From the IMG/VR virus record IMGVR_UViG_3300045790_002333, positions 1-38,654 of that record: a stretch of 38,654 nucleotides of DNA; one strand, 5' to 3'. The position numbers and the translations under genes were made by a program. This stretch comes from a virus. A model generated the notes under the pieces. It had not been told where the DNA came from. It did no database searches and worked only from the letters and a program-made list of their open reading frames with translations. This document shows positions 207 to 38,654 of this stretch, piece by piece. Each line of letters starts with the position of its first letter. Position 1 is the stretch's first letter.

Positions 207-951
207 AGGGCAGCCCCGCAATTTCAATGCGTTGACGCGCCCGGCCTTGGAAAACCCCCGACCAAGCATCAATACGTTAGGGGTATGTTTGGCAAACTTT
301 CTGGCTTCCATTCCCCGCCTGTATCTGCTAGGTATTGGGCTCACCTCCAATCTCCCGGGTGGGGTTTGGCGGTTCGGGCGTTAGCGCCCGCCTCTGGGGG
401 ATTGCACTCTTTCAGATGACAGCCGGGAAAGACCGGCACTAAGACCTAGCTTGCTAGGCCGGGTGGGTTGAACTCCGCCCGTTACAATTCGCGCGTCGGG
501 TTTACTCGATGCCTCCTCCGGGTTCCGGCTCGGAGGGATTATTCGCCTGAGATGGCGTGAATGAAAGCGGAGGTCGCCGGTTCGAGTCCGGCCACCAAAC
601 CAGCGGAACCTAGGATAACCGCTGCGGGAGGTGTAGCTCAGCTGGTTAGAGCGCCGCACAAGTTTCGCCCGAACGGGCAACACGTTTGACACTGCGCCAA
701 TGGCGACGAGTGCTATCGAGGCGACCGGAGGGCCAGCGTAGCGAACATCCGGGATGTGAGTGGTCAAGGAATGCTTGCCGACTGAACATGTAAGTAACGG
801 TTACAAGTTCGCCCGCTGGCGCAACCGGCCAAATAACCGGCCATTGGTGTCTTATGTGGCACCATACCAGGGTTAACCGGTCATCAAAGCCCGGTCCAGC
901 GTCGCCAAGCCGCCCTCTTGCGGGCATAGCGCCACTGCTTGAAGCGGTTCA
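207..951 (+). other. Long protein-free, hairpin-rich region between int and the phosphoesterase gene
   Basis: No convincing protein gene lies here; the short open frames have no good start signals or recognisable products. The sequence folds locally again and again: CGGGCG/CGCCCG at 375-390, GCCGG/CCGGC at 422-437, CCTAG/CTAGG with a CTTG loop at 445-458, CGGGTGG/CCGCCCG at 460-481, CCTCCG/CGGAGG at 515-536, CGCC/GGCG at 544-557, GCCC/GGGC at 667-678, CACT/AGTG enclosing CGCC/GGCG at 690-712, and ACATC/GATGT at 745-757. A tRNA-like element sits in the middle (554-669). The length and density of helices suggest a large structured RNA read in the int direction. I do not recognise the family; phage-borne GOLLD or ROOL RNAs are possible comparisons only. 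Confidence 0.5.
561..665 (+). ncRNA. Permuted tRNA-like element (3' half upstream of 5' half)
   Basis: The upstream part (561-602) has a tRNA 3' half: anticodon-stem strand AGCGG, variable loop AGGTC, T-arm GCCGG-TTCGAGT-CCGGC, then CACCAAACCA. The downstream part (627-659) has a tRNA 5' half: GGAGGTG, TA, a perfect D-arm (GCTC/GAGC with loop AGCTGGTTA), G26 and CCGCA. The halves fit each other: GGTG pairs with CACC in the acceptor, CCGC pairs with GCGG in the anticodon stem, and G15/C48, G18G19/T55C56 and T8/A14 agree with tRNA tertiary contacts. The 24 bases between the halves form a hairpin (CAGCGG/CCGCTG, 601-624). Against a working tRNA: three acceptor-tip mismatches, an A-A pair at 31/39 and no clear T33. 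Two unrelated tRNA remnants side by side is the alternative. Confidence 0.45.
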
Positions 952-2466: not shown

Positions 2467-3525
2467 ATGCCGCTTTCGTCTCCCCATCCTGAAATTGCTC
2501 GCTTCGGCCATCTTGACACACTGCGGTTTGTTTTCGCGGCTATCGTTGTCGTGGGCCATGCCTTCGGGTGGGGCTGGGTTCCGCGCGGCGCGCTGGCAGT
2601 GGATTTTTTCTTTCTGCTGTCGGGCTTCGTTTTGGCCCACTGGATCGTTGAGAGGCAGCCGAAGTATTGGCCGTTTGTGAAAGCACGGATTGCCCGAATG
2701 TGGCCCCTTCACGCTGTTACGGCTGTCGTCACGGTCGCGATCTATTACAACACCGGGGGTCGTCTGTTTCCCGGCGAGGACAGCGCCGCATTCACCCTGC
2801 TGGCGAACCTGCTATTTCTTCAAAACTCCGGCATCATGGACGGGCTGACGCTGAACTTCCCAAGCTGGTCCATCGGCGCGGAATTTTGGGTGAACGTGCT
2901 CTTGCTGTGGTTCGTCGTAATGGGGCGGCGCGTCGGCTTGGCCGCTCTGCTGGGAGGTGCCGCCCTGGCCGTATTGCTGCTCTATCATCCCAAGTTCGAC
3001 CACGCACACCACCAGTCGTTTTACATCACAACACTCGGCACCGTCCGCTGTGTAGCTGGCGTGATGTTCGGGTATCTGATCTATGAAATCACGCGGCGCG
3101 GAAAGCCTCTGCCGTGGTTGCAGGCAGTTCAGGCCGTGCTGCTGGTGGCGGCGCTCTATATGTGCGTCACCGGCCCATCAGAGCCGCGCTCCAACATGGT
3201 GGCTTACGGGCTTATGGCCTGCCTGCTAGCTGCGTTGGCATACCCAACCGCCCTGACACGCTGGCTGGGTCATCCGGTATTGGCGTGGCTCGGAAACCTG
3301 TCCTTCGCGATCTACATGATCCATGGCCCGCTTCTGATCGCCGCACGGCGCAGCGGGTTTATCATCCCCAATCAGACTACGTGGATTGAGGGGGCCGCTT
3401 ATATTGCCATCCTGATGTTCTTGGCGGTGGGGTCATTCTATCTGCTAGAGAAGCCTGCCAAGAAGCGAATTTTGGCGCTGGGAATGCCCGATCGCTCACG
3501 CCAAGCCACGCAAGACAGGGCGTGA
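2467..3525 (+). CDS. Membrane acyltransferase (acyltransferase 3, OafA/YrhL-like)
   Basis: A 352-residue integral membrane protein with about ten hydrophobic segments. Near the N-terminus it has the family signature: DTLRF, then VVGHAFG with the conserved His, then AVDFFFLLSGFVL. Members move acetyl or other acyl groups onto cell-surface sugars; in phages such genes alter O-antigen and block superinfection or change serotype. It points opposite to all surrounding late genes and has its own promoter and regulator, so it should be expressible from the prophage. The cassette is bounded by the direct repeats at 2047-2072 and 3574-3599. The substrate cannot be read from the sequence. The ribosome site before ATG 2467 is weak (GATCGGA). 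Confidence 0.85.
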   Translation: MPLSSPHPEIARFGHLDTLRFVFAAIVVVGHAFGWGWVPRGALAVDFFFLLSGFVLAHWIVERQPKYWPFVKARIARMWPLHAVTAVVTVAIYYNTGGRLFPGEDSAAFTLLANLLFLQNSGIMDGLTLNFPSWSIGAEFWVNVLLLWFVVMGRRVGLAALLGGAALAVLLLYHPKFDHAHHQSFYITTLGTVRCVAGVMFGYLIYEITRRGKPLPWLQAVQAVLLVAALYMCVTGPSEPRSNMVAYGLMACLLAALAYPTALTRWLGHPVLAWLGNLSFAIYMIHGPLLIAARRSGFIIPNQTTWIEGAAYIAILMFLAVGSFYLLEKPAKKRILALGMPDRSRQATQDRA

Positions 3526-31153: not shown

Positions 31154-31410
31154 GCGCCCTTCCCGCCAGCCTATCGCCTCGCCAGCCCGCTTTCACACTT
31201 GCTGACCGGCTCGCGCACATCATCCGGGCACGCCTGACGGGTTTCGACCCGCGCCGTGCCGATGAGGGTAACGCATTGGCCGTGCAGCGTCTGACGCGGG
31301 TTGGCCCCGGCATCTACGAAATGAACGCCGAGTTCGACGGCCAGCTCTACCGCGTGACGGTTGAGCGTGAGGCTGACGCCCTGCGAGCCGAAGAAGTGGA
31401 GGCCGCGTAA
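31150..31410 (+). CDS. Hypothetical early protein (86 aa)
   Basis: An 86-residue protein, MSALPASLSPRQPAFTLADR then a basic middle and a small beta C-terminal part (GPGIYEMNAEFDGQLYRVTV). Overlaps upstream gene (ATGA) and is joined to the ASCH gene as TAATG. No family recognised. Confidence 0.6.
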   Translation: MSALPASLSPRQPAFTLADRLAHIIRARLTGFDPRRADEGNALAVQRLTRVGPGIYEMNAEFDGQLYRVTVEREADALRAEEVEAA

Positions 31411-31802
31411 TGGCTGATCGTATCGAAGATGGGGCACTCCCGAAGGTTGCCCTGAGCATTCGCCAGCCGTGGTGTCATCGAATTTTGCACGATGGCAAGG
31501 ACGTTGAAAACCGAGACTGGCCGACGAAGTTTCGCGGCCCCGTTCTGATCCACGCCGGGAAGGCATGGGATGACGGTAAGCCGCTTGAGGCTGATCGGTT
31601 CGAACTTCCGCGCGGTGGCATCGTGGGTGTGGTCGATATCGTCGACTGCGTGACGAGCATGGAAAGCGAATGGTTTTTCGGGCGCTACGGATTTGTGCTC
31701 CGCAACCCGCGCCCACTTCCCTTTGTCCCGTGCCGTGGGCAGCTCGGATTTTTCAAGGTCGATTACGCCATGCTCTCCGCTCGCCAGAAAGGCGGTGCGT
31801 GA
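31410..31802 (+). CDS. ASCH-domain protein
   Basis: A 130-residue protein matching the ASCH fold: ALSIRQPWCHRILHDGKDVE then NRDWPTKFRGPVLIHAGKAW and GGIVGVVDIVDCVTS. ASCH domains are PUA-like RNA-binding beta barrels, some of which act on modified nucleosides. In phages they may alter host RNA or nucleotide pools. The GRYGFVLRNP segment completes the usual domain. Junctions: TAATG upstream, TGATG downstream. Confidence 0.8.
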   Translation: MADRIEDGALPKVALSIRQPWCHRILHDGKDVENRDWPTKFRGPVLIHAGKAWDDGKPLEADRFELPRGGIVGVVDIVDCVTSMESEWFFGRYGFVLRNPRPLPFVPCRGQLGFFKVDYAMLSARQKGGA

Positions 31803-37636: not shown

Positions 37637-38654
37637 GGCCGGGCGTGTCTATGAATACCACTACCACCGCGCGACCCGGACGCGCCTTAAATCAGAGCCG
37701 GGAACACTGGCCTTCGCGACAGAAGTCGAGCGGCTAAACAATCAAGCCCAAGCCGATTTTCCCGGAACGCTTTATTCCATGATCAGCGCGTTCAAAGCCT
37801 CGCCAGAGTGGGCAGGCTTGGCGGATCGAACCCGCAAGGACTACGCGCAAGTCCTAGACTACCTCGCCCCACTGGGGGGAGACGACCCCTCCGCATATAC
37901 GCCGTCTGATTGCCTAGAGGTGCGGGACGCCGCGTTCAAATCTCGCGGATACAGATTTTCCAAATACGTCATACAGGTTTGCTCAAGGCTCTGGAATTGG
38001 GGCCTTCCGCGTGAGTATGTCTCGGTTAACCCATGGGCCAGCATCACGGCGATCAAGCGACCCAAAGAGCTGGGAACAGCAAACCCGCCGTGGACAGCGC
38101 AGGAGCTGGCAACCGGGCTAATGACCGCCCCGATAGGGCTGGCGCGTGGCTTGGCCCTATGCGCGATGGGCCGGGATGGGTCCGACGCGATCCGAACAAC
38201 ATGGGGGGAGATTGAAGGGGGGGAGAAGGCGCGCGGCAAAACGGGCGGATCGGGAAGACTGATCATCCCCGATGCGCTTGCCCCGATATTCCAGGGGGAG
38301 CGGTTTTGCGAGTTTGTCACCACGCATTCGGGCAACGGTCCGTGGAAGACGCAGAACACCTTCACCAAGGCCCGGCGCGACCATATGGAAGGGTTGGCGG
38401 CGCGCGGTCTGGTCAGACACGGCCTCACCACTCACGGCCTGCGCAAGACGCTGGCGACCATCATAACGGAGGGTGGCGGAGAGCTACGAACCGTACAGAA
38501 CGCATTGCAACACAAGACGGTTGCTATGGCGCTGCATTACTCTGCCGAAGCCGACATGACAAAGCGATCCGGCGAGGCTATGAAGCTCTTGTCCGGCGCG
38601 CTTTCGGACGCAGGTTTTGGAAAACCTTTTGGAAAACCCGGCACCAATGACCGG
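37587..38654 (+). CDS. int: Tyrosine-recombinase integrase (5' part; ends at 166 after circular closure)
   Basis: Merged length about 368 residues. I chose TTG 37587, giving PARIKISGIKTVRVRKAGRV at the start, as in alphaproteobacterial phage integrases, with GGGAG 6 nt upstream; an in-frame ATG at 37521 would add 22 residues. The N-terminal part binds arm sites, residues ~60-160 form the core-binding domain, and the catalytic domain has HGLRKT (box II), LQHKTV and the nucleophile Tyr in LHYSAEADM. The first catalytic Arg region reads AMGRDGSDAIR, with one more residue between R and D than the usual GxRxGD. It inserts the phage at attP 166-206. Confidence 0.9.
   Translation, partial: MPARIKISGIKTVRVRKAGRVYEYHYHRATRTRLKSEPGTLAFATEVERLNNQAQADFPGTLYSMISAFKASPEWAGLADRTRKDYAQVLDYLAPLGGDDPSAYTPSDCLEVRDAAFKSRGYRFSKYVIQVCSRLWNWGLPREYVSVNPWASITAIKRPKELGTANPPWTAQELATGLMTAPIGLARGLALCAMGRDGSDAIRTTWGEIEGGEKARGKTGGSGRLIIPDALAPIFQGERFCEFVTTHSGNGPWKTQNTFTKARRDHMEGLAARGLVRHGLTTHGLRKTLATIITEGGGELRTVQNALQHKTVAMALHYSAEADMTKRSGEAMKLLSGALSDAGFGKPFGKPGTNDR
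38528..38654. repeat. Right copy of the 127-bp terminal repeat (circular-assembly overlap)
   Basis: Identical to bases 1-127. It carries int codons including the catalytic tyrosine motif and the tandem arm repeats (a redundant copy of 88-111 at 38615-38638). Confidence 0.93.

Follow-up and report, generated by a model that had tools for sequence, protein, structure and literature searches.

In YrlA RNA the 5′ and 3′ ends come together in a large stem, to which the Ro60 orthologue Rsr binds and which bears a tRNA-like domain resembling the D, T and acceptor arms; this domain is both a substrate for DusA and TruB and a tether for PNPase (PMC8394870). YrlA has been noted in several phages (PMC7765460), and a role in competitively inhibiting a tRNA nuclease has been suggested for it (PMC7790460). 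The analysis presented here concerns a phage genome (the window, i.e. the whole stretch of 38,654 bases analysed) and confirms that it holds a permuted tRNA-like element, which is very probably a YrlA-like (bacterial Y RNA-like) tRNA mimic. The explanation that best accounts for the whole is, in our judgement, a likely one, namely that a YrlA-type module within a longer phage RNA acts as a tRNA look-alike binding host proteins without Ro60.

The two ends of the record, which IMG/VR classes as linear, are identical over 127 bp (1–127 and 38528–38654), and the integrase reading frame exits at the right end and resumes at the left, so that the integrase gene spans the join; the phage genome is therefore most likely complete and circular, at ~38.5 kb. 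The phage is temperate, and its gene content includes a portal, major head protein, large terminase, tape measure, tail fibre and DnaB-like helicase. Its host is probably an alphaproteobacterium. A related prophage fragment (L181) was found in one alphaproteobacterial MAG; as the MAG contig carries a relative and not the window phage itself, the true host may differ. Two further features were observed: an O-acetyltransferase/O-antigen acetylase-like gene at 2467–3525 (phrog_3333, phrog_6705), possibly a serotype-converting moron, and at 31410–31802 a weak match to the ASCH domain (an RNA-binding fold), just under the Pfam cut-off.

From left to right, the end of the integrase gene (at 166) is followed by a tRNA-Cys-like piece and then by ~780 bases with no convincing gene, up to the metallophosphoesterase gene (Table 1). 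The tRNA-Cys-like piece, to which the Rfam search assigned an RF00005 match at 166–237, matches by blastn the corresponding segment beside the integrase in pelagiphages, and for this reason is most likely an attachment site; we consider it probably to be attP and rejected it as a part of the RNA element. A piece resembling the 5′ part of tRNA-Cys occurs at the same place in L006 and L007.

Table 1. Features of the integrase–phosphoesterase interval of the window and of the corresponding interval in relatives (window positions unless a locus is given)
Feature	Position	Strand	Basis or remark
5′ part of tRNA-Cys, probable attP, directly after the integrase stop codon	165–208	+	RF00005, 19.5 bits; blastn
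Promoter-like motif TTCCAT-N17-TAGGTAT	306–335	+	Putative; conserved in L003, L004 and L181
5′ block of the presumed RNA, two hairpins (CCTAG-CTTG-CTAGG; GGGTGG...CCGCCC)	440–481	+	Near-identical in L003
Upstream hairpin CGCC-TGAGAT-GGCG	544–557	+	Alignment, folds; nearly identical in L003 (CGCCA GAGA TGGCG)
Alternative pairing of the upstream hairpin region, GGCGUGAA with UUUCGCC (Y-RNA basal stem)	UUUCGCC at 663–669
YrlA-type tRNA-like module, permuted (T-arm half, closed acceptor stub, D-arm half)	567–657	+	RF02553 match; 8/8 Watson–Crick; explicit structure
T-arm half, then D-arm half	567–596, 630–657	+
GCGG, equivalent of anticodon-stem 3′ strand (positions 40–43), pairs with 654–657	567–570	+	Compensatory changes in L003
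T-arm GCCGG TTCGAGT CCGGC	576–592	+	Direct sequence
Acceptor stub CACC (593–596)/GGTG (630–633), closed by hairpin-bearing linker	593–633	+
Linker hairpin AGCGG/CCGCT	602–606/619–623	+
D-arm GCTC AGCTGGTTA GAGC with G18G19	636–652	+	Direct sequence
CCGC, equivalent of anticodon-stem 5′ strand (27–30)	654–657	+
Downstream hairpin GCCC-GAAC-GGGC	667–678	+	Sequence block kept in L003
3′ border GGCGCAACCGGCCAAATAACCGGCC (CCGGCCAAATAACCGGCC)	818–842	+	Common to relatives whatever RNA fills the slot
Metallophosphoesterase gene	952–2130	− (opposite strand)
Skipping-rope RNA	L004:5208–5297	−	RF02924
Skipping-rope RNA	L181:1159–1248	−	RF02924

Read 5′ to 3′, positions 566–658 present GCGG, a 5-base variable loop, the T-arm, CACC, the hairpin linker, GGTG, TA, the D-arm, G and CCGC. 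Each of the structural observations in the initial annotation stands: direct sequence places the T-arm and 3′ acceptor strand (576–596) ahead of the 5′ acceptor strand and D-arm (630–652), the two halves pair with one another through CACC/GGTG (equivalent to tRNA positions 4–7/66–69) and GCGG/CCGC (27–30/40–43), and the link between them forms a hairpin. The tertiary residues that it described as kept are present as well, with canonical tRNA residues at 8–14, 15–48, 18–55, 19–56 and 54–58 (U8–A14, G15–C48, G18G19 and U54UCGA58). The module encodes no anticodon loop, its ‘anticodon stem’ opening to flanking sequence, and its acceptor is a 4-bp closed stub without discriminator and CCA; consequently it cannot be charged or decode. 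The minimum free energy fold of the isolated stretch is another structure (−40.0 versus −30.0 kcal/mol for the tRNA-like form), as calculated with an energy model that ignores tertiary contacts.

In the Rfam search the YrlA model (RF02553) matched 554–674 over its entire length (model 1–114 of 114) with 37.0 bits (E 2.6e-6), which is below the gathering score of 69 bits, a score that no phage record examined reached, Ro60-linked ones included. Since the same model gives phage records with tRNA arrays (n=30) as much as 38.5 bits, score and E-value alone are not decisive. Because the arrangement of YrlA resembles a junction between adjacent tRNAs, where a 3′ end meets the 5′ end of its neighbour, tandem tRNAs were used as the control: a broad pattern search returned mostly tandem tRNAs, and these became the null set. 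Pairing was measured in 169 junctions of adjacent ARAGORN tRNAs in phage contigs and in 25 junctions lacking an ARAGORN tRNA on either side, the mimic class. Within the window a separate pattern search gave one match (0.00 expected in shuffles). At the eight positions compared between upstream and downstream halves, the window shows 8/8 Watson–Crick pairs against a mean of 2.7/8 in the tandem junctions, a single one of which reached 7/8 and none 8. All 25 mimic-class modules have at least five standard pairs out of eight, mostly 6–8 Watson–Crick pairs; together they hold 157 Watson–Crick cells out of 200 (5000 shuffles: mean 74.7, maximum 101), whereas the tandem junctions hold 461 of 1352 as compared with 431 in shuffles. 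The Levitt pair 15–48 is G–C or A–U in 22/25 mimics (permutation p = 1e-4) versus 91/169 tandem junctions.

The pairing is also maintained in L003, a close relative (phosphoesterase 91% identical) that has a homologous module at the same locus (RF02553, 30.8 bits). Its stems read GTGGA/TCCAC and CCGT/GCGG, with two-sided changes relative to the window at 27–43, 29–41, 30–40, 6–67 and 5–68, and the Levitt pair, G–C in the window, is A–U in L003. The initial annotation had named two findings that would speak against its reading, halves that evolve without compensation and intact standard tRNAs in relatives; what L003 displays is five compensatory changes, and ARAGORN finds no intact standard tRNA in L002–L012. 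The acceptor stub of L003 is CCGU-UUCG-GCGG, so that its linker is only a UUCG loop and this 12-nt stub cannot hold two tRNA acceptor ends. About 90 bases past the first module, a second, weaker and degenerate T-arm/D-arm module was seen (L003:5430–5600, minus strand), with T-loop TTCGCTA and D-arm GTAGCTCAAGAGGTAGAGC. Further close homologues were not found in the IMG/VR and genome searches: the pattern AAGACCTAGC..GCTAGGCCGG matched the record of L003 only, no genome contig matched GAGATGGCGT..T-arm..D-arm, a looser version of which retrieved from viral contigs the L003 record and two ordinary tRNA arrays (L042, L180).

These data bear directly on what else the element could be. A decayed pair of tandem tRNA genes, of which the 3′ part of the first and the 5′ part of its neighbour survive, would fit with tRNA arrays being common in phages and with tandem tRNAs matching RF02553 just as strongly, but neither partner halves nor intact tRNAs are present in the window or its relatives, and the cross-half pairing, the compensatory changes in L003 and a UUCG stub too short for two acceptor ends already contradict this reading, which we regard as very improbable. 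A permuted tRNA gene, whose transcript would be circularized and cut into a functional tRNA, is harder still to credit. The order of the halves agrees with it, and ARAGORN recognizes the L003 module as a tRNA once it is un-permuted and given an artificial 7-nt loop (the un-permuted window module is not recognized, as expected for a 4-bp acceptor); set against this, the anticodon loop is not encoded, the stem opens to unrelated flanks, U33 is absent and the UUCG-closed stub of L003 leaves no room for discriminator and CCA. ARAGORN detected no tRNA in the window or in its un-permuted module.

A permuted tmRNA of the alphaproteobacterial type likewise has the tRNA 3′ half encoded ahead of the 5′ half, and the host is probably alphaproteobacterial, but the tmRNA model (RF04321) attains only 10.3 bits with E = 9.2 over a part of its length (model 36–95 of 213), which is no covariance-model match, and the window element has a full tRNA-type D-arm; we rejected this candidate and give it next to no credence. 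Hence the algal or archaeal permuted tRNA genes and the permuted tmRNAs that the initial annotation had offered as context do not apply, in the former case given the stem open to the flanks and the 4-bp stub without discriminator and CCA, whereas the annotation was right to favour a mimic, or part of a larger RNA, over a charged tRNA. Its surmise that a phage example would be new does not hold, as other phage contigs hold YrlA-like modules whose halves pair likewise, many of them near TROVE.

With respect to Ro60, no Ro60/TROVE gene (PF05731) was found in the window record, which is closed by the 127-bp overlap, nor was a TROVE gene found in the 40-kb record of L003. Chen (2014) reportedly described bacterial and phage Y RNAs that lie close to Ro60. 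TROVE is encoded by nine other viral records with YrlA-like matches, mostly within ~1.5 kb of the match; further TROVE-encoding records were seen beyond those nine, and hundreds of phage records are annotated with Ro-like proteins. The Ro60-linked phage Y RNAs (G006–G009, G012, G013 and G016–G018) share with the window the module itself, with 5–8 of 8 Watson–Crick pairs in the modules measured, and have multiple modules per locus, as does L003; they differ from the window in having TROVE within ~1.5 kb and basal stems of 8–12 bp. On the other hand, several large, possibly incomplete contigs carry a module without TROVE, namely G011 (159 kb), G015 (94 kb), G052 (91 kb) and G026 (55 kb), and such Ro60-less phage modules may be common. 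The modules of these four contigs are loci L164, L167, L114 and L044, respectively.

The main alternative to a Ro60-independent role is that the RNA is a canonical Y RNA partnered by a host Ro60 (Rsr), in whose ring the basal stem GGCGUGAA/UUUCGCC would dock while the tRNA-like module recruits or gates PNPase in a RYPER-like manner. The window flanks can indeed form this stem (13 pairs, duplex z −1.8), in competition with a local hairpin; the Rfam alignment runs through the stem, and Ro60-linked phage YrlA exist. However, the phage is without Ro60, L003 does not keep the stem (duplex z −0.6) and forms a strong local hairpin from the equivalent bases instead, and TROVE is rare in genomes near the alphaproteobacterial MAG that holds L181 (2/118). 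We therefore consider the use of host Ro60 unlikely. Because there is no phage Ro60 and the basal stem is doubtful, we prefer, tentatively and short of calling it probable, a decoy or docking role independent of Ro60. Given the compensatory changes in the stems and in the 15–48 pair, the RNA is expected to fold into a tRNA-like elbow (T-loop/D-loop) that carries a short, closed acceptor stub. According to this proposal, the elbow would be presented to host proteins that read tRNAs; candidate partners are modification enzymes of the TruB/Dus type, PNPase or a tRNA-cleaving nuclease. The module would thus act mainly as a decoy or docking unit within a longer phage RNA, in the absence of Ro60.

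Sequence conserved with L003 extends on both sides of the module (Table 1). We infer that the YrlA-type module is part of a phage RNA spanning ~340–830, transcribed from a promoter common to the relatives and deduced from the conservation of the motif, with a putative start near 340; a generic promoter scan found no promoter at the motif. In L004 and L181 the motif (CTGGTAGGYATTG) lies upstream of a different RNA, the skipping-rope RNA (RF02924), which scores above gathering (40.6 bits) in the slot between integrase/attP and phosphoesterase of both relatives and has no match in the window or in L003. The skipping-rope RNA thus has the slot and the preceding promoter-like motif in common with the window module, but differs in having another structure and in not being a tRNA mimic. 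Since the same borders hold skipping-rope RNA in L004 and L181, this phage group appears to keep an ncRNA slot beside attP whose occupant varies.

Considering these observations together, we propose, with slightly less confidence than we attach to the decoy or docking role as such, that the element may represent a class of phage RNAs whose Y-RNA mimic module, freed from Ro60, serves as a standalone tRNA decoy within a longer transcript, occupying a swappable attP-side slot shared with skipping-rope RNA. If this were true, YrlA-type and skipping-rope RNAs might serve a common purpose, and the tie of the uncharacterised skipping-rope RNA to the same slot provides a testable hint on both RNAs. 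YrlA-type mimics, mainly known as Ro60 partners, are also present in phages without a Ro60 gene, and for this reason the tRNA-like module may function independently. A note of caution is that Y-RNA-like mimics can hide behind phage tRNA or tandem-tRNA signals.

Finally, in comparison with YrlA (RF02553), the window element has the same placement of the T-arm before the D-arm with a closed acceptor stub between them, the paired halves (8/8 Watson–Crick, with covariation), the GUAGCUCA and GGUUCGANNCC signatures, and an anticodon-stem equivalent that leads outward into flanking RNA. It differs in scoring below gathering, in belonging to a phage without a Ro60 gene, in a Ro60-type basal stem that is uncertain and not conserved in L003, in an extended acceptor linker with an extra hairpin, and in its location inside a presumed longer phage RNA. 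The YrlA design and its occurrence in phages are already known; what is new is that Ro60 is missing and that the slot is shared with skipping-rope RNA.
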